DNA of 64,000 nt from Acetobacter conturbans (GTDB lineage: Bacteria; Pseudomonadota; Alphaproteobacteria; Acetobacterales; Acetobacteraceae): the NCBI RefSeq assembly GCF_011516755.1, contig NZ_WOSY01000006.1, positions 62,001 through 126,000 on the forward strand, in the 5' to 3' direction. Within the stretch, counting starts at the first letter, position 1, and the number at the start of each line of letters is the position of its first letter. Shown here piece by piece: positions 32,233-50,616 of this stretch. The translations under genes were made by a program, and so were the position numbers. The notes under the pieces were generated by a model. It searched no databases and had not been told where the DNA came from. It worked only from the letters and a program-made list of their open reading frames with translations.

Positions 32233-32439
32233 TATGGGGAAAAATGTTTGATTTATAAAAGTATTTTTCGGACGCATCGTGGTGCTGCCACTGTTAGTGG
32301 CCTGAAAATGTAACCCTTTATTAAGTTTGTATATTTAACCATCGGAGAGGTCAGGAAAGAAAAAATTAATCCTGCGGGAGCGGGTTTCTCAACGTGACAT
32401 GTATTGAGGAAATCCGGCTGTAGGGAGGAGTCGGTAAAC

Positions 32440-34680
32440 GTGACAACCATCAGCAGCGGTGTTTCTTCCAGTAATGTCTCCGCGACATCTTCGGATCCAC
32501 TGGTTGTTGCGTCAGGCGGCAGCGTTACGACTGTCACAATAGGGCAGGGCGCGTCGGCTACGATTTCGGGAACCGCCAGTGACGTCACCGTTTCCAACGG
32601 CGGCTCCATCACGGTCGCTTCATCCGGCGTCGTCAGCACTATCACGCTCCAGCCGAAATCCACCGAATATGTCAGTAAAGGTGGAAAGACGGTCTCGAGT
32701 TATGTCGATTCCGGGTCGACGCTGACTGTCTATACCGGCGGCTCGGCTGTCAGCACGACTGTCACAGGTCAGGGGCTTGTCAATATCTCGGCAGGCGGCG
32801 CGGCAAGCGGCGTCGTTCTGAACGACGGGTGGCTGGCGATCTACCCGACCGGATCAGCGGCGGATATCACCGTCAATTCCGGTAATCCCAATGCGACAAT
32901 GACATATGCCAGTGTGCAGATCACGGGCGTGGGGCTGTACGTTGCGGGCACCGTCAGCAATGTCATCATCAATTCCGGCGGTGTGGCCAATTACGTCTAT
33001 TATCAGAGTCAGGGCGTCGGTAAAAACACGATCGTCAATTCCGGCGGCATACTTCGCGAACAGGGTGGCGTGTCCATCGATGCCGTTCTCGAAGGCGGCG
33101 CTGAAGAAATCGTCTATTATAGTTACTATACCGGTTCCAGTATTTCGACCACGATCAGTAGTGGCGCACACCAGTATGTCTCTTTGGGAGTGGCGTCGGG
33201 GGCGATTGTTTCTGCGGGCGGCTATCAGATTGTCAGTGGCAAGGGTGGACGTGCCGTCGGCACGGAGGTGCTCTCCGGTGGAACCGCCACGGTATCGACC
33301 AGCGGCGTTGTCAGTGGCGCCTCGGTTGCGAGTGGAGGCATGCTTGCCGTATCGGCCACAGGCGTGGCGAGTGGCGGTGTTGTAGCCAGTGGAGGTAAGC
33401 TCGCGGTTGCTGCGGGAGGCACAGTCTCGGCAGTCGATATTGATGGCGGCACGCTGGTTCTGGCAGGCAGCGGCGCTCTCGCAACAGGCACTCTTCTGGA
33501 AAATCAGGGCCGGATTTCTGTCGCCAACAGCGCAATTCTTTCGGGTGGGACTTACACCAGCGGAACGATCATCGTTTCGAGTGGCGGTCATCTGAGCAAT
33601 ACCAGTCTCGGCGCGGGGGCCAGCGCCGTGATCGGGTCTGGCGGTCAGGCCGGGGGCATGAACCTTGCGTCCGGGGCGAGCCTGAGCGTCGGGTCAGGCG
33701 GCACGGTAAGCAGCACAACCGTGAGCAGTGGTGCAGTTGTCGAAGCCGCTTCCGGGGCTATCGTCAGCAGCACCCTTCTCAGCAGCGGTGGCCTTCTCCA
33801 GATCGACAGTGGTGCCACCACGACTGATACGACCCTTGTTTCCGGCGGGGCCATCGAGCTTGTCGGCACGACATGGTCGGACACGGATGCCCTGGAGTTC
33901 GATAGTGCGACCAACACGCTCTACATCACCGATAATGGCGTTACTCTGGCGGTAATCGATCTGGCATCCGCTGACGACATTTACAGTAGTGCCGATTTCA
34001 CGATTTCAGAAACATCGGCCGATGCTCTGTATGCCTCTCCTAACGACGTTCTTGTGACGCTGACCGTTGCGGCCTGTTTCTGCCGGGGAACGCTGATCGA
34101 AACGGAATTCGGTCCGATGGCGATTGAAACCATCGAAGCAGGGACGCGCGTTCTCACGGTGGGGGGACGTTTCATGCCTGTGCGATGGCGTGGCGTACGC
34201 CGGTACACGCACAAACAGATGGTGCTGGACAGATCGCTTTGCCCGGTGCGACTGCGGGCACATGCGCTTGCAGATGATGTACCGCGTCGGGATCTGCGCC
34301 TTTCACAGCTCCATGCGCTGTATTTGCTGGAATTACTGCTGCCCGCCAACGCGCTGGTGAACGGAAGTTCCATATTTCTCGAGCCTCCTTCCCGATATGT
34401 CGAATATCACCATATCGATCTGGGCGTGCATGCCGTTATTCTGGCTGAAAACACTCCTGCTGAAACATTGCTGGATGATGATGCCGCACGGCGCAGTTTT
34501 GATAATTATGCCAGCAGGTGCCCGAAGGACTGTGAAACATGTGTTGCGCCTGTTTACTGCGCACCATTGATCGAAAGAGGGGAAGTCGTGCGGCGCCTGC
34601 AAAAATTATACGCACAAAGGGCGAAGATTCTCGATTTTCCCGAAGTTCGGCTTGAGGTCGAGGACTTTTATCTTGTCTGA
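32440..34680 (+). CDS. AIDA-like strand-loop-strand repeat protein with C-terminal Hint domain
   Basis: Secreted-type protein of about 746 aa. Residues 1-510 are Gly/Ser/Thr/Val-rich AIDA/strand-loop-strand repeats ('VVSGASVASGGMLAVSATG', 'VSSTTVSSGAVVEAASGAIV'), probably a beta-helix. From about residue 545 a Hint (Hedgehog/intein, Hint_2-like) domain begins with CFCRGTLIE, nucleophile candidate Cys546, then 'GTRVLTVGGRFMPVRWRGVRRYTH' and 'LSQLHALYL' (usually SPDHAL). The end holds a Cys-rich stretch (CPKDCETC). GTG at 32440 has GGGAGGAG nine bases upstream, which decides the start over the TTG at 32404. No Sec signal is seen, so export may be by type I or another route. Substrate and processing are unknown. 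Confidence 0.85.
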   Translation: MTTISSGVSSSNVSATSSDPLVVASGGSVTTVTIGQGASATISGTASDVTVSNGGSITVASSGVVSTITLQPKSTEYVSKGGKTVSSYVDSGSTLTVYTGGSAVSTTVTGQGLVNISAGGAASGVVLNDGWLAIYPTGSAADITVNSGNPNATMTYASVQITGVGLYVAGTVSNVIINSGGVANYVYYQSQGVGKNTIVNSGGILREQGGVSIDAVLEGGAEEIVYYSYYTGSSISTTISSGAHQYVSLGVASGAIVSAGGYQIVSGKGGRAVGTEVLSGGTATVSTSGVVSGASVASGGMLAVSATGVASGGVVASGGKLAVAAGGTVSAVDIDGGTLVLAGSGALATGTLLENQGRISVANSAILSGGTYTSGTIIVSSGGHLSNTSLGAGASAVIGSGGQAGGMNLASGASLSVGSGGTVSSTTVSSGAVVEAASGAIVSSTLLSSGGLLQIDSGATTTDTTLVSGGAIELVGTTWSDTDALEFDSATNTLYITDNGVTLAVIDLASADDIYSSADFTISETSADALYASPNDVLVTLTVAACFCRGTLIETEFGPMAIETIEAGTRVLTVGGRFMPVRWRGVRRYTHKQMVLDRSLCPVRLRAHALADDVPRRDLRLSQLHALYLLELLLPANALVNGSSIFLEPPSRYVEYHHIDLGVHAVILAENTPAETLLDDDAARRSFDNYASRCPKDCETCVAPVYCAPLIERGEVVRRLQKLYAQRAKILDFPEVRLEVEDFYLV

Positions 34681-44157: not shown

Positions 44158-45168
44158 CTACTGCTCCTTTTCCATCAGAAGATGGTCGAGGAGGCTCTCT
44201 ATCATTTCAGGCGAGGTCCAATGAAGACCGACCCCGACGACCTGCACTTTTCGGCGGAATGCAGGCGGCAAACGCGCCGCATCCTTGGGGGTGGTGACCA
44301 GTAACGCCTCAGCTTGCAGTGCCAGATGAGTCAGTTGGCTGAGATCAAGGTCGCTGAACGGATGATGATCAGGAAAGGGAATGCAGTTCAGGGGATGAAC
44401 GCCGTTTTCCCGTAGTCCCTCAAAAAATTTGTCAGGGCGCGCCAGTCCGGCAAATGCGATCACCGCTTTGTCGCGGAGATCCGTGACCGTCTCATCCATC
44501 TGCAAGTCTGCGTTCAGGATGGGGTGCTGCCATTGACGAAGCGTTTGTTTCACCCCGGCTTTGTCCTTGCCCGTGATGACAACGGCGTTGGCCGCATTCA
44601 GTCCAACCGCCAGATTTTCCCGCAATGGACCTGCGGGCAGCACGCAGCCGTTGCCAAACCCGACCGCCCCATCGACGAGCACCAGTGACAGATCCTTGTA
44701 GAGGCCGGGATTTTGAAATCCGTCGTCCATGATCAGACAGTCCGCCCCAGCACCGATAGCGGCACCGGCGGAAGCGACACGGTCCGGACTGACCCAGCAT
44801 GGCGCCACGGCCGCGAGCAGCAGCGCCTCATCGCCGACATCTTTCGCTGTGTGCCGTGAGAGATCCACCCGCACGGGATCGCCCGGACGCATATTTTCCG
44901 CGCGGTAGCCCCGTGTGAGGCAATGCACATTCATGCCCCGGTCCTGCAGGCGTTGGGCAAGGTCAAGAACCGCCGTGGTTTTGCCGGTTCCACCAACTGT
45001 CAGATTGCCGATGCACAGAACAGGCACGGGTGCATGCCATCCTGCTTTGCGTCGCCGCCGCGTCGCCTCATAAGCCACCATTGAGGCGACAGGCCGCAGA
45101 AGGCTGCTTGCAAGTCCCGGTGGACGGAACCAGAAGGATGGAGCGTGAAGCCGCAGTTTTTCAGGCAT
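44158..45168 (-). CDS. lpxK: Tetraacyldisaccharide 4'-kinase
   Basis: Kinase of 336 aa that phosphorylates the 4' position of the lipid A disaccharide before Kdo transfer. One N-terminal hydrophobic segment, then the P-loop 'CIGNLTVGGTGKTTAVLDLAQRL', 'LTRGYRA', 'DEALLLAAVAPCWVS', 'LIMDDGFQNPGLYKDLSLVLVD' and 'GLARPDKFFEGLRENG'. The start overlaps the end of the DUF374-KdtA gene by 8 bp and the stop touches lpxL, so the three are co-transcribed. Confidence 0.96.
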   Translation of the reverse strand: MPEKLRLHAPSFWFRPPGLASSLLRPVASMVAYEATRRRRKAGWHAPVPVLCIGNLTVGGTGKTTAVLDLAQRLQDRGMNVHCLTRGYRAENMRPGDPVRVDLSRHTAKDVGDEALLLAAVAPCWVSPDRVASAGAAIGAGADCLIMDDGFQNPGLYKDLSLVLVDGAVGFGNGCVLPAGPLRENLAVGLNAANAVVITGKDKAGVKQTLRQWQHPILNADLQMDETVTDLRDKAVIAFAGLARPDKFFEGLRENGVHPLNCIPFPDHHPFSDLDLSQLTHLALQAEALLVTTPKDAARLPPAFRRKVQVVGVGLHWTSPEMIESLLDHLLMEKEQ

Positions 45169-47278
45169 TGGACATCGTGCGGTGAATCAACCGGGCCAGA
45201 CGAAGCGGAAGCATTTGATCCCGCGTGGCCACCTTCCTGCCAGCTTCACCCCGCGAGGTGGCCAGCGCCGTGTTATCCAGCATGGTCTCGACCCATTTGG
45301 CCAGCTCCTGTGGCGTGTGGACGACCGTTACCGCATCGGCCAGCGCCACAAAGGCTTCCTCGAAATTGCCTGTAGCTGGTCCGGTCGCCACGACACAGCC
45401 CAAGCGTGCGGGTTCGAACGGATTATGGCCACCTCCCGGTGTCGGTCCACCCGAAACGACAAGACTGTTGCCCATGAAGATGACGGGCGACAAGCGAAAC
45501 AATGTGCCCAGTTCACCAAGTGTATCGACCACCCAGACCGGATCCTGTGCTTTTGGCCATGCTGCCTGCGCGCGACGGGGGACGGTGCCAACGGAGGGAA
45601 AAGCGCTTAACACCTCGTCAGCAACCATTTTGCCGCGCTCGGGATGGCGGGGGGCAATGATGGTCAGCAGGTCGGGATGAGTGGCCGCAACGATTTTCGC
45701 CGCTTCCAGCACCCGTGCTTCCTCACCGGAATGTGTAGAAGCAGCAATCCAGACAGGCCGCGTTCCGATGGCCTTGCGAGCATCGTCGAGGACGTCGGGA
45801 TCGGCAGTGAGGGGAGCCGCCGCTGTTTTCAGATCGCCATCACAGAACACGTTCGCAGCCCCCAGCATCCGGAAGCGTGCCGCATCTTCCGGTGATCGCG
45901 CCGCGACCCATGAAAGCCCACTCATCATGGCTTTCGCCATGCGGGGCACCCGTCGCCACCCGTTCAGCGCCGAGCGGGACAGGCGTCCGTTGACTACGGT
46001 GACTGGCACGTCTGCCGCATTGCAGGCGGCAATCATGTTCGGCCAGAGTTCACTTTCCGTAAGAACAAGACATGTTGGCTGCCAGTGGCGAAGAAAGCGT
46101 TTCACCCAGCGGGGCACGTCAAGCGGCACGAAACGATGCAGAACCTGACCTGCTTTTATCTCATCAGGTAATTCCCGCGCCAGTATTCCCGCTGCGGTCA
46201 CTGTGCCGGTAGTGACCAGAATATGGAGAGAAGGCTCATCGTTCAGAAGAACCCGTATGACGGGAAGAATGGAGATGGTTTCTCCAACACTGGCGGCATG
46301 CAGCCAGATAAGAGGTCCCGGAGGTCGTTGACTTTTATCCAGCCCCAGCCTTTCGCGCAGCCGTTCGGCAATTTCCTTGCCTCGACGCAGACGTATGCGG
46401 AGCATGACGATCAGCGCCGGCGCAAGGAGAGAGGCGCACAGGTTCCATAATAAGGGAGCGCTGGCCCTGAAGGGCCGGGCGGGCGTGTGCGGCGCTTTCA
46501 TCGGCCCTTCGGCTACGGCGGCCGAGGGCATGGTCGCGAGGCTGTCCGGATAGCTGGCGGCTACCCGTCCGGCTTCGTCCTGCGCTGCTGTCAGGCGTTC
46601 CCCGAGGAGGACGCGGGCGGTTTCACGAGCATCTCCTTTTTCAATGTGGAGAGGCGTTCCGCAGACGATGCGCCCACGTCCGAACGGGAGGGGCAAAATC
46701 ATGCGGTCCCACGAGCGGACCCGGATACATCGGCACTGTACGCCAACGGGGATGATGGGAATGCCGGTTTTTTCCGCCAAAGCGATGATCCCGGCCTGCA
46801 CTTCACGGCGTGGGCCTTTCGGTCCATCCGGCATGACGGCGACGGTATGGCCTTCCGCCAGCGCCGTGCGGATCTGACGCAGCGCCGCAGCGCCACCCTT
46901 GTTCTTTCCTTTCTTGTCGGAAGAACCGTGGATGGGAGGGATGCGCCAAGGCGCGACAATATTGGCGATCAGCCGTCCGTCCCGGTTGCGGCTGATGAGG
47001 ACATGCAGCCGCATTGCAGGATTGCGAGGCTCCGTCCACCACCAGAGGGCAGGGGAGAGAGCCAGTGCTTCATGCCAGAACGCGACGAGAAGGCCGCTGC
47101 TCTGGCTCCCGGACGTGCGTTCCTGAAGAAGAAGTGCCCGGGCTTCCGGTGTCGCCTCGAAACGCCAGCGCGTGGTGCGGAGGGCGAGGCTCAGCCAGCC
47201 ACGAATGGCGGTTTCCAGGAGGCGCTGACGCCGGCTGTGGCTCTCGATGGGCTGCAACTGATCAGAACTGGCCTGCAT
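45161..47278 (-). CDS. waaA: DUF374 acyltransferase-like - Kdo transferase (KdtA/WaaA) fusion
   Basis: A 705-aa protein joining two normally separate proteins. Residues 1-235 are a DUF374 lysophospholipid-acyltransferase-like domain ('LVAFWHEALALSP', 'AVMPDGPKGPRREVQ', 'IPIIPVGVQC'). From about residue 275 comes a complete Kdo transferase: membrane anchor and 'RRGKEIAERLRERLGL', 'WLHAASVGE', 'PLDVPRWVKRFL', 'LTESELWPN', 'VNGRLS', 'GDLKTA', 'APRHPER', 'MGNSLV' and 'GGHNPFEPA'. An internal ATG at 46501 (residue 260, preceded by GAAGGGCCG) could start a separate KdtA. Kdo transferase adds Kdo to lipid IVA. First gene of the lipid A operon. Confidence 0.93.
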   Translation of the reverse strand: MQASSDQLQPIESHSRRQRLLETAIRGWLSLALRTTRWRFEATPEARALLLQERTSGSQSSGLLVAFWHEALALSPALWWWTEPRNPAMRLHVLISRNRDGRLIANIVAPWRIPPIHGSSDKKGKNKGGAAALRQIRTALAEGHTVAVMPDGPKGPRREVQAGIIALAEKTGIPIIPVGVQCRCIRVRSWDRMILPLPFGRGRIVCGTPLHIEKGDARETARVLLGERLTAAQDEAGRVAASYPDSLATMPSAAVAEGPMKAPHTPARPFRASAPLLWNLCASLLAPALIVMLRIRLRRGKEIAERLRERLGLDKSQRPPGPLIWLHAASVGETISILPVIRVLLNDEPSLHILVTTGTVTAAGILARELPDEIKAGQVLHRFVPLDVPRWVKRFLRHWQPTCLVLTESELWPNMIAACNAADVPVTVVNGRLSRSALNGWRRVPRMAKAMMSGLSWVAARSPEDAARFRMLGAANVFCDGDLKTAAAPLTADPDVLDDARKAIGTRPVWIAASTHSGEEARVLEAAKIVAATHPDLLTIIAPRHPERGKMVADEVLSAFPSVGTVPRRAQAAWPKAQDPVWVVDTLGELGTLFRLSPVIFMGNSLVVSGGPTPGGGHNPFEPARLGCVVATGPATGNFEEAFVALADAVTVVHTPQELAKWVETMLDNTALATSRGEAGRKVATRDQMLPLRLARLIHRTMSNA

Positions 47279-47470
47279 GATGTAAGGCGGTTAGCATGGG
47301 CAGTCGGGAGCGCAAAGACACGCCGTAAAAGTTGGTAACAGTATTGTGTTGATTGACAGCTATGCTAATAACGCAAGGTTTAATTGCAGTTGTCGCGCCA
47401 ATGCCTCTAGGGTCCGGGCGTAACCTGAATATGGACTGAGTTCAGGAGCATTTGATGCTATACGGATTAT

Positions 47471-48052
47471 ATGCAGGCTTATGACACTTTTCGGGAGCAT
47501 CTCAGGTCTGCGACGCGCTCACGGCATGCGGCGCTCGACCAGCTGATTGGTCCTATTACCACTGAACAGGCCTACCACCGTTATTTATGCGGCATTGCCG
47601 CATTTCGGATCTCCGTTGAGCCGCGTCTGTCGGACATCGTCGTCTGGCCGGATATTCTGGGAACATGGCGCCCAACGAGGCTCGCTGAATATCTTCATAC
47701 CGATCTCGATGTCCTGGGGCTTGCGATCGACAGTCCGCTCTCCCGGCTTGATGTCTCCAATACCAGTAGCCTGCTGGGTATTCTTTACGTGCTGGAAGGC
47801 TCAGTGCTGGGGGCGCGGTTTCTCGTCAGGCAGGTTGCGGCAGCAGGAGTGGAAGAACATTCCGGTGCCCGGCATCTTTCACTTCAGGCTTCTTCCGTCG
47901 ACAACTGGAAGCATTTTCTGACCTGTCTGGAAAAAGCTGAGGACTTCGATCGGGTTCTGGCGGCGCAAGCGGCTTGCGACACCTTTGATGAAGCAACGGA
48001 CGCGATGAGACTGACGGATCTGAAGGGTCCGTTTCATGATGTTCGCCCATGA
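47471..48052 (+). CDS. bphO: Biliverdin-producing heme oxygenase
   Basis: Heme oxygenase of 193 aa converting heme to biliverdin, the chromophore of bacteriophytochromes. The proximal heme histidine is in 'RSRHAALDQL' (His19), and 'LLGILYVLEGSVLGARFL' is the distal helix with its Gly-rich kink. The gene overlaps the following bacteriophytochrome start (ATGA), so the two are translationally coupled. This is the classic BphO-BphP pairing. Product isomer is presumed IX-alpha. Confidence 0.93.
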   Translation: MQAYDTFREHLRSATRSRHAALDQLIGPITTEQAYHRYLCGIAAFRISVEPRLSDIVVWPDILGTWRPTRLAEYLHTDLDVLGLAIDSPLSRLDVSNTSSLLGILYVLEGSVLGARFLVRQVAAAGVEEHSGARHLSLQASSVDNWKHFLTCLEKAEDFDRVLAAQAACDTFDEATDAMRLTDLKGPFHDVRP

Positions 48053-50616
48053 ATATGGAATTTGAGAACGTTCTGTTCGGACAGGCTGACCTGCTGTCGT
48101 GCGATCGCGAACCCATCCATATTCCGCAAAGCATTCAGCCCGCCGGCTGTGTGCTGGTGTTCTCCCCGCAGGAGTGCCGCCTCACACGATATTCGGCCAA
48201 TACGCAGGCATATCTCAGTCTGCCCGAAATCCGATTTGGCCTGTCGCTGAATGAGTGTTTCGGGGAGGCGATTACGGCGGAGATTCTCGCCAGCGCAGCT
48301 CAAAGCGCTTCTGGAAAACCGTCTATTCTGTTTGACCTGGAACTGATGACGGGTTTTCGCCGGGATATCGTGGTCCATTATTCCGGTGATGAGCTGATTG
48401 TCGAGTGCGAGGATGCCATGCCGTCGGCGCTTCACACGAGCGTTCTGGCAAATCAGCGCCGGATCGTGGAGACCATCCGCAATCCTGCCGACATCCTCGG
48501 ATTGCTCCGCGCCACTGCGCCAGTCATGCGGCAGGCCTTCGGTTACGACCGGGTGATGATCTACCGTTTTTCGCCGGACTGGTCGGGGAAAGTCATCGTC
48601 GAAGACCGACGCGAAGGGCTGGAGAGCTTTCTGGGGCAGCATTTTCCAAGTGGTGATATTCCAAGTCAGGCGCGGGAACTTTACAAAAGATCCCTGATTC
48701 GCGTGATCACCGACGCGACTTTCGCTCCCGTGCCGCTGGTTCAGCAGGATGGCCTGCTTCCCCTGGACATGACGTTCATGCATCTCCGGGCGGTTTCGCC
48801 CATTCATTGCGAGTATCTGACGAATATGGGCGTGCGGGCCTCCATGTCTCTCTCTCTGGTCGTCGATGGGGAGTTGTGGGGGCTGATCGCTTTTCATCAT
48901 TATGAGGTCAAGAAACCCGCCATGGCTGAACGCGTCATGGCGAAGATGGTGGGAGAGATGCTTGCCCTCCAGCTTGTCGCGCTCATACGATCACGACGGC
49001 TGCATCTCACACAGAATACGCATCTGTTTCTGTCCCATTTTCTGCGAAAGGCCACCGAAGAGAACGGCCCGTCTTACATTCAGGAGAGGGTGCAGGAACT
49101 TCTGACCGTCATTGAATGCGACGGAGGCGGTGTCTGGATGGAAGGCCACTGGACGCCCAAAGGCCAGACTTTAAACGAAGCGGCTGTTGTCGATCTGCTG
49201 TCGGTAGTGAAGAAAAACGGTAACGATGACATGTGGTGCAGCGACCATCTGCTGAAGGACTGTCCTGTCCTGGCGGGGCGGATGTCGGGGATCGCCGGAG
49301 CGCTGGTCGTTCCCATGTGGCCTCAGGGCAACGATTATCTGGTCATTTTCCGTCAGGAAGTCATCCAGACTGTTCTGTGGGGAGGGGATCCCAAAAAGAC
49401 CTACAGTACGGGACCGCATGGCGTTCGCCTTACACCACGCCGCAGCTTTGATCTGTGGAAGGAAGAGGTGCGCAACCACTGCCTTGAGTGGACCCCGGAA
49501 GATCTGGAACTGGCCGGACAGATTCGATCGACCCTGATGGAAATCATGGCCGTGACCCATCAGCGCATCCTGCGGGAACGGACACGATCGGAAGAGCTTC
49601 AGCGTATTCTGAATGACGAGCTCAATCATCGGGTCAAGAATATTCTTGCGATTGTGCAGACGCTTGTGGCGCGGGAACCGACCGCGTGTGACAGCGCGGT
49701 TGAGTACAGCCGCTCCCTGCAGGGGCGCATCAGTTCGCTTGCCACCGCCCATGACGTGGCTCTGGTCGCGAAAGCTGAAACGACACTGAAGGATCTGTTG
49801 CAGGCTGAACTGGCCCCCTATGAGACGAGCGCCAACAGCATCGTGCTGGAAGGACCGTCGTTTATCCTCTCCCGGCGCGCCCTGACGTTTCTGGCATTGC
49901 TGTTTCATGAACTGGCAACCAACGCGGCCAAATATGGGGCGCTCTCCACAAGTCACGGGTGCCTTACGGTGAAGTGGGCCTATGAATCCCAGAGTGCGTC
50001 GTGGAATATTCTCTGGGAAGAAAAAGGTGGCCCTGAAGTGGTGGTTCCAAAGCAGGCGGGATTTGGTAGCCTCCTGCTCGACAGAGCGGTCACTCACAAT
50101 CTTGGCGGCAAGGCTGTAAGGCACTTTCTACCTGAGGGAATCAGGCTTGAAATCACCCTGCCGGAGCAGCCGGCTGGCGCGACGTTTTCAGAGTTTTCTG
50201 ATGCGGGGTCCAGAAAGGGCATCACTGCCATCGGCATGGAGGCTGAAAAGACTTTAGCCGGGAAGACAGTTCTTCTTCTGGAAGATGAATTCCTGATCGC
50301 TCTCGACGTTGAGCAGGCTTTGTCCGAGAAAAAGGCGGCACATGTTTATACGGCCTCTTCAATCGCACAGGCATGTGAAATCCTCGAACGATATCTTGTG
50401 GATGTTGCCATTCTCGACATTGATATCGGTGGCGAGACATCTGCGCCTGTTGCCCGTCTGCTTGCGGATCGCGGTGTGCCATTCGTTTTTACAACGGGAT
50501 ATGACAACGACCCGGAAATAAATCAGTCATTCCCTGAGGCTGAAATCATCAAAAAGCCTTATGAAATAAAAGATATTCTAAAGGCACTTGCGATCTCTTC
50601 GGGCTGCGGCAATTAA
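48049..50616 (+). CDS. bphP: Bacteriophytochrome with HWE histidine kinase and C-terminal receiver
   Basis: Red/far-red light sensor of 855 aa. PAS (about 20-125) with bilin-attachment Cys18 in 'LLSCDREPIHIPQSIQPAG'; GAF (140-310) with 'PSGDIP' (conserved Asp) and 'SPIHCEYLTNMGV'; PHY (320-500) with the tongue motif PRRSF; an HWE-type kinase with 'ELNHRVKNILAIVQTL' (His near 526), 'LFHELATNAAKYGALS' and 'WNILWEEKGG'; then a receiver domain with 'LLEDEFLIALD', 'VAILDIDIG' (Asp near 790) and the conserved Lys in 'IIKKPYE'. The sensor and its receiver are fused, so it may signal to a separate partner. Coupled to bphO. Confidence 0.95.
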   Translation: MNMEFENVLFGQADLLSCDREPIHIPQSIQPAGCVLVFSPQECRLTRYSANTQAYLSLPEIRFGLSLNECFGEAITAEILASAAQSASGKPSILFDLELMTGFRRDIVVHYSGDELIVECEDAMPSALHTSVLANQRRIVETIRNPADILGLLRATAPVMRQAFGYDRVMIYRFSPDWSGKVIVEDRREGLESFLGQHFPSGDIPSQARELYKRSLIRVITDATFAPVPLVQQDGLLPLDMTFMHLRAVSPIHCEYLTNMGVRASMSLSLVVDGELWGLIAFHHYEVKKPAMAERVMAKMVGEMLALQLVALIRSRRLHLTQNTHLFLSHFLRKATEENGPSYIQERVQELLTVIECDGGGVWMEGHWTPKGQTLNEAAVVDLLSVVKKNGNDDMWCSDHLLKDCPVLAGRMSGIAGALVVPMWPQGNDYLVIFRQEVIQTVLWGGDPKKTYSTGPHGVRLTPRRSFDLWKEEVRNHCLEWTPEDLELAGQIRSTLMEIMAVTHQRILRERTRSEELQRILNDELNHRVKNILAIVQTLVAREPTACDSAVEYSRSLQGRISSLATAHDVALVAKAETTLKDLLQAELAPYETSANSIVLEGPSFILSRRALTFLALLFHELATNAAKYGALSTSHGCLTVKWAYESQSASWNILWEEKGGPEVVVPKQAGFGSLLLDRAVTHNLGGKAVRHFLPEGIRLEITLPEQPAGATFSEFSDAGSRKGITAIGMEAEKTLAGKTVLLLEDEFLIALDVEQALSEKKAAHVYTASSIAQACEILERYLVDVAILDIDIGGETSAPVARLLADRGVPFVFTTGYDNDPEINQSFPEAEIIKKPYEIKDILKALAISSGCGN

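Follow-up and report, generated by a model that had tools for sequence, protein, structure and literature searches.

An Agp2-type heme oxygenase–bacteriophytochrome gene pair in Acetobacter conturbans and its apparently bilin-blind sister kinase

The window, by which we mean the whole 64,000-nucleotide stretch of Acetobacter conturbans DNA analyzed here (contig NZ_WOSY01000006.1, positions 62,001 to 126,000), contains on its forward strand two adjoining genes that form a putative light-sensing operon. The first, at 47471–48052, encodes a bphO-like heme oxygenase of 193 amino acids (aa), recognized by homology and alignment, with the codon of its proximal His19 at 47525–47527; the second, at 48049–50616, encodes a bacteriophytochrome histidine kinase with a receiver (855 aa), recognized by its Pfam domains and a structure match. 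The open reading frames (ORFs) of both genes are intact at these coordinates, and the stop codon of the oxygenase gene and the start codon of the phytochrome gene overlap in the sequence ATGA (48049–48052, + strand), an arrangement that suggests translational coupling and bears out the coupled pair reported in a preliminary description of this DNA. We regard the identity of both proteins as nearly certain. Its domain architecture assigns the locus to the Agp2 type, an already known kind: Agrobacterium AtBphP2/Agp2 is described as having the same architecture (PMC11021371, PMC8117939), and an HWE kinase with a response regulator is also listed for R. palustris (PMC9587094).

Within the 855-aa protein, the Pfam domains PAS_2, GAF, PHY, HWE_HK, HisKA_2 and Response_reg each score above their cut-offs. 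PAS_2 spans residues 18–121 (48100–48411, +), and its first codon (48100–48102) encodes the bilin-binding Cys18 in the motif SCDREPIHIP. GAF (residues 150–308; 48496–48972, +) includes Asp203 in PSGDIP and His253 in SPIHCEY, and the PHY domain with its tongue (residues 334–501; 49048–49551, +), delineated by Pfam and alignment, includes WGGDP, Trp444 and PRRSF (463–467). This PAS-GAF-PHY module places the protein among the bacteriophytochromes, albeit with a score against the NCBIfam BphP equivalog model (264.7 bits) that lies below the cut-off of 1040. The closest solved structure is 6g1y (E 1.3e-106, residues 13–500), which we take to be Agp2 of Agrobacterium fabrum, and all 17 positions compared with Agp2, Cys18 included, are kept. 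The photosensory module is complete, as the preliminary description had it, and the protein very probably binds biliverdin.

HWE kinases are defined by an N-box histidine and a WxE motif. The window phytochrome presents His620 in LFHELATNAAKYGAL and Trp656-Glu-Glu658, scores 65.5 bits against PF07536 (HWE_HK), and has its H-box region at residues 524–603 (49618–49857, +), with His527 (codon 49627–49629) in ELNHRVKN, so that by motif and profile it belongs to the HWE class. The receiver (residues 741–847; 50269–50589, +) passes the Pfam cut-off narrowly (32.4 vs 30.2 bits); its Asp746, Asp790 (codon 50416–50418, in AILDIDIG) and Lys836 follow the HWE kinase, as expected of the Agp2 type. The assignment of an HWE kinase with its own fused receiver thus stands.

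The oxygenase is recognized through its relatives. Taken singly, it scores below the cut-off of the Pfam heme oxygenase family (18.1 bits vs 23), a search of the window's genome with PF01126 returned no match at E 0.001, none of the NCBIfam models matches it, and an AlphaFold2 model from the single sequence has a mean predicted local distance difference test (pLDDT) score of only 33.5. A single-sequence search with this protein matched pa-HO at 5.7e-11, the scores against pa-HO and HemO being 46 and 23 bits. With a profile built from 16 oxygenases of the genus, the window's included, these scores rose to 83 and 86 bits, and the structures of HemO (1j77) and pa-HO (1sk7) were matched at 2.1e-23 and 2.2e-22, respectively; 14 of the 16 sequences match PF01126 at E 0.01. 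In the alignment, which holds 16 of the 17 proteins of the genus (that of G017, split over two frames, was excluded) and in which some rows start a few residues upstream of the start codon, His19 is invariant (16/16), as are the E, G and LGA of the EGSxLGA motif, with Ser in 12 of 16. By these profile matches the 193-aa protein belongs to the heme oxygenases, and it would be expected to have the chromophore-producing role assigned to it earlier. A nine-codon ORF (MLYGLYAGL; 47455–47484, +), preceded by AGGAG, overlaps the oxygenase start in another frame and may be due to chance.

What is unexpected at the level of the genome is an apparently blind sister, in which parts usually required for holding the pigment are missing. 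The window's genome (G000) encodes a second phytochrome-HWE-receiver kinase (L041:4922-7507:-, contig G000:C2, 861 aa), in which PAS_2, GAF, PHY, HWE_HK and Response_reg all exceed the Pfam cut-offs; it lacks the bilin cysteine and reads SPTGRAY where the window phytochrome has SPIHCEY. PHY matches were obtained in 26 of the 49 Acetobacter genomes searched, and the 34 matching rows correspond to 33 proteins (one in two pieces), all of which were extracted, aligned and classified. Seventeen are sighted, each keeping all 17 compared Agp2 positions, and 16 are apparently blind. Among the latter, some positions are rarely kept (Cys13 in 0, His248 in 1, Trp440 in 0, Arg460 in 0, Ile197 in 2 and Ser262 in 3 of the 16) and others more often (Arg211 in 15, Arg242 in 12, Pro198 in 12, Tyr251 in 10, Asp196 in 9 and Gln190 in 8), from which we infer that these proteins are bilin-blind, with loose bilin binding perhaps remaining. 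An oxygenase ORF adjoins every sighted gene (17/17, counting the window's own; in G017 it is divided between two frames), and none was found within the fetched flanks of the blind genes (0/16), the rest of the blind-only genomes not having been searched; given that the 33 proteins are related, this association does not represent 33 independent events. Persistence of the pairing in close relatives, which the preliminary description had made a touchstone, therefore holds for the sighted proteins and fails for 16 of the 33, in which light-sensing residues are lost.

In the blind proteins the H-box, N-box and G-box are all retained, as are the Asp and Lys of the receiver. The ratio of nonsynonymous to synonymous substitution rates (dN/dS), estimated by a counting method with dS saturated in some pairs, is 0.081–0.120 over the whole protein and 0.066–0.152 in the sensor part for 8 blind pairs, and 0.055–0.199 for 5 sighted pairs. 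By this measure purifying selection acts on the sensor module of the blind copies, which are hence not decaying pseudogenes.

The sighted and blind sets also bear on whether the window pair senses light at all. Conceivably, the oxygenase serves to recover iron from heme and the phytochrome responds to redox state or to biliverdin, and RpBphP4 of R. palustris, reportedly a phytochrome that lost its bilin and turned redox sensor, lends this idea a parallel. We consider it very improbable, since the window protein keeps 17/17 of the Agp2-compared positions, whereas its blind relatives lose several of them.

Several individual genes in the survey stand apart. The sighted phytochrome of G020 (L082:3892-6483:-) has lost the kinase N-box and G-box, with the H-box and receiver remaining, and would need a partner in order to act as a phospho-donor; the same genome also has a blind copy in which those kinase motifs are intact. 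In G017 (L088:3045-3639:+), an open sighted phytochrome gene has as its neighbor an oxygenase whose coding sequence is divided between two overlapping frames, reflecting either a frameshift or a sequencing error. HWE kinases about 1150 aa long, found in G027, G044 and G048, were considered as further decayed phytochromes and set aside as unrelated; inspected by eye, these proteins (L187, L186 and L185, respectively) resemble CheB-CheR-PAS-HWE, with a short receiver frame nearby.

The resting state of the window phytochrome can be predicted from traits that, according to PMC12362586, are conserved more strictly among known bathy phytochromes. Its tongue has 37 residues (5 more than in DrBphP), and it carries Arg at PRXSF-3, Gly at PRXSF-8 and Gln at PASDIP-3, a His at each of the two candidate positions for the LWGL+5 of PMC12362586, and a linker of 47 (3 fewer than in DrBphP), the value of most known bathy proteins according to the same source. 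These traits, which are not exclusive, are also found in the other 16 sighted proteins of the genus, except that 10 of them have Asn at one of the LWGL+5 candidates; the linker was measured in all but the G007 protein. For the window phytochrome, a bathy, far-red-absorbing (Pfr) resting state is a fair prediction. The Asn variants raised the question of whether clade-A proteins lack the equivalent of DrBphP His290, presumably Agp2 His278. This was ruled out: His278 of Agp2 is kept in 17/17 sighted proteins, and it is the residue after it that is Asn in 10 of the 17.

Phytochromes are widespread in the family. PHY matches were found in 188 of 397 sampled Acetobacteraceae genomes, representing 56 of 102 genera. 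A further 15 phytochrome loci were retrieved from genera other than this one; the bilin cysteine motif is preserved in 14, and an oxygenase match adjoins 12 (among them g27_G074, the one locus without the motif). With these numbers and the 26 of 49 genomes within the genus, red/far-red sensing can hardly be called unusual for such an organism, as had been supposed. A phototrophic ancestor has been proposed for Acetobacteraceae (PMC12654162; see also PMC10715153, in the main text of which the word phytochrome does not occur); if this is right, an inherited light sensor in the family is unsurprising. A literature search, judged mostly by title, turned up no study on phytochromes of acetic acid bacteria.

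In a gyrB tree of 46 of the 49 genomes (G027, G035 and G042 lack a full gyrB), the phytochrome carriers fall into two sister clades, with support of 99 for the joint clade, 86 for A and 100 for B. Clade A comprises 12 genomes, nine with the sighted form only and three with none, whereas all 15 genomes of clade B, to which the window belongs, have the blind form and seven of them also a sighted operon. Ten of the 16 blind loci have an alcohol-dehydrogenase-like neighbor downstream, and in nine the upstream ORF belongs to one and the same family, which is the pattern to be expected if the gene has not moved. This is not so for the sighted operon. G034 and G036 have GyrB proteins that are 99.1% identical and sighted proteins that are only 50.6% identical, and for G018 and G020 the values are 95.1% and 47.2%. 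The window operon and that of G034 both sit between waaA and an aldehyde dehydrogenase gene; among the 17 of 30 loci at which waaA neighbors were examined, only these two have the operon there. In G002, G019, G032 and G035, the aldehyde dehydrogenase gene adjoins waaA with no operon and 200–264 bases between the aligned ends, and the remaining 11 loci, with other or unidentified neighbors, are uninformative. The operon of G036 is missing at the matching place in G034, G040 and G002 (986–1028 bases vs about 4.1 kb); G001 shows a rearrangement in this region and nothing there that matches the operon. Such a patchy distribution would be accounted for by repeated loss, by transfer, or by the two combined.

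How often sight was lost was addressed with phytochrome trees that included seven outgroup proteins in one case and 14 of the 15 fetched proteins in the other. The full-length trees require at least two changes between sighted and blind, and the kinase-plus-receiver tree four; a single clade of all 16 blind proteins was not rejected by approximately unbiased (AU) tests (p-AU 0.136 and 0.238), with long branches in play. A shared single loss is therefore not what the trees prefer, yet the tests do not reject it, and we claim no count.

One flank of the pair holds ORFs that are probably lpxL, lpxK and waaA, and the other aldehyde dehydrogenase and alcohol dehydrogenase genes; among the neighboring ORFs in the window, no response regulator gene adjoins the pair, in agreement with the preliminary description. 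The same agreement extends to the photosynthetic apparatus, PufL/M (PF00124) having no match in the window's genome. A PQQ dehydrogenase is encoded within the 64 kb, an indirect sign of an acetic acid bacterium. The G+C content of the cassette genes (55.6–56.4%, vs 58.9% for the window) was considered as a sign of foreign origin and is not diagnostic. The 705-aa protein at 45161–47278 (-), probably waaA-like, is matched by G012, G022 and G043 only from residues ~252–277 on, with frames of 450–471 aa, and these partial matches suggest a fusion of two genes. Farther away, at 32404–34680 (+), lies a gene for a 758-aa protein with a Hint_2 domain and a match to the AIDA stalk.

Candidate components of an output pathway are found elsewhere in the genome, which encodes PhyR, NepR and ECF sigma factors, the constituents of the alphaproteobacterial general stress response. 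PhyR, sought in this genome only, has one match above the cut-off (278 vs 240 bits), encoded next to an ECF sigma gene. The NepR ORF is flanked by another ECF sigma gene and by the gene of a HisKA_2 kinase that, inspected by eye, looks membrane-bound. Across the genus, NepR matches occur in 45 of 49 genomes (above the cut-off in 40) and HWE-model matches in 46 of 49. The four HWE-model matches in G000 are the two phytochromes, a PAS-PAS-HWE protein and the HisKA_2 kinase beside nepR. Against the NF009971 model, the blind phytochrome scores 70.6 bits, PhyR 62.3 and the window phytochrome 57.8 (53.9 in another scan), and the next of the nine G000 matches listed has 31.9 bits. The receivers of the phytochromes here contain FTTGY or FATGY, presumably the FAT GUY motif. 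In the relay described in PMC5898713, HWE kinases act on SdrG, a receiver of the FAT GUY family with PhyR's as its best structural homologue, and SdrG on the histidine-kinase-derived PhyT, which in turn acts on PhyR. HWE kinases reported to act on PhyR include LOV-HK (PMC8092228) and the Paks (PMC5898713). By analogy, the fused SdrG-like receiver fits a relay of the Pak-SdrG-PhyT-PhyR type, and a tentative possibility is that the phytochrome feeds the PhyR-NepR-ECF sigma response through its receiver and the HisKA_2 protein. The output, which the preliminary description had left blank, is narrowed by this PhyR-like receiver and these genes and is not solved.

On balance, we lean towards reading the locus as an Agp2-type two-gene light-sensing operon that feeds a stress response. 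In such a scheme, the heme oxygenase, shown by homology, would make biliverdin, which Cys18 of the phytochrome would bind; the photosensor would rest as Pfr and be switched by far-red light, and the switch would alter autophosphorylation of His527. The phosphoryl group would pass first to the protein's own receiver at Asp790 and from there to the HisKA_2 protein encoded beside nepR and on to PhyR, which would pull NepR off the ECF sigma factor, with the second, apparently bilin-blind kinase feeding the same pathway from another cue. A bolder extension, to which we give a rather low probability, is that the blind kinase of the clade is a fixed input to the stress response, responding to a non-light cue through a repurposed PAS-GAF-PHY module, and that the sighted operon is an exchangeable accessory adding red/far-red control, perhaps via heterodimers.

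Several points weigh against the favored reading. The bathy traits are not exclusive to bathy phytochromes (PMC12362586); the NF009971 scores fall far short of the curated cut-off of 151 bits, which none of the genus genomes attains; the phytochrome genes, phyR and nepR are spread over different contigs; and the HisKA_2 protein has a HATPase_c match, whereas the ATPase of PhyT is described as degenerated (PMC5898713). An EcfG-type promoter motif was not found upstream of bphO or the blind gene with a crude pattern, which found none at the nepR region either, so that this result is weak in either direction. In the experiments reported in PMC8117939, wild-type Agp2 gave no autophosphorylation, and its receiver-Asp mutants were phosphorylated independently of the red-absorbing (Pr) or Pfr state; light control of the kinase is therefore not assured even in the best relative, although for bathy phytochromes the title of PMC11021371 makes the contrary statement, that darkness inhibits.

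The same Agp2 work, in which autophosphorylation appeared only with the receiver Asp replaced (PMC8117939), speaks for an alternative, one that has been considered for Agp2, in which the receiver does no more than drain phosphate within the molecule and the phytochrome signals through contact with other proteins, with no route to PhyR. The absence of a regulator gene next to the pair is in keeping with this, but the 16 blind copies keep their kinase and receiver motifs with much of the light pocket lost, and kinase output therefore appears to be what selection keeps there; we judge the alternative unlikely, if worth bearing in mind. Still less probable, in our estimation, is that the operon mainly serves another two-component output, through an orphan response regulator encoded at a distance, and that the fused receiver acts as a brake. 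Other receivers are available (nine NF009971 matches in G000), PaBphP passes its phosphate to AlgB (PMC11021371), and an AlgB-like partner is, according to PMC1552090, not deducible from gene arrangement; against this, besides the phytochromes only PhyR falls in the same NF009971 range (62.3 bits, the next listed match having 31.9).

As a light sensor, the window operon is a further Agp2-type case. Its wider interest lies in a natural experiment, in which related species have sighted and blind versions together, only one of them, or a cassette-free site; such a set would make it possible to test what the kinase does when the pigment is present and when it is absent. It also allows one to ask whether the general stress response of alphaproteobacteria receives input from red/far-red light, here in a probable acetic acid bacterium.

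Compared with known systems, the window phytochrome shares PAS-GAF-PHY, an HWE kinase and a C-terminal receiver with Agp2/AtBphP2 and AvBphP2, and its Asp790 corresponds to receiver Asp783 in AtBphP2 and Asp793 in AvBphP2 (PMC11021371). It differs from them in the overlap of the oxygenase gene with the kinase gene, in reading IQPAG for IQPHG and in having an apparently bilin-blind paralogue in the same genome. With the bathy phytochromes PaBphP, RtBphP2, XccBphP and others, it has in common the tongue length and other traits; PaBphP and RtBphP2 carry HisKA kinases (PMC12362586), whereas the window protein is of the HWE class and its bathy resting state is a prediction. The oxygenase shares the proximal His and the distal EGxxLGA motif with pa-HO and HemO, to which it is distantly related. 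As with LOV-HK of Brucella and the Paks of Sphingomonas, the kinase is of the HWE class and a SdrG/PhyR-like receiver, PhyR, NepR and ECF sigma factors are encoded in the genome; unlike in those systems, the SdrG-like receiver here forms one protein with the kinase, and the relay is a putative one. For the blind paralogue, RpBphP4, reported to have lost its bilin, offers a precedent, from which the copies described here differ in keeping the HWE kinase and receiver and in occurring throughout clade B (15 of the 15 genomes placed there by gyrB).

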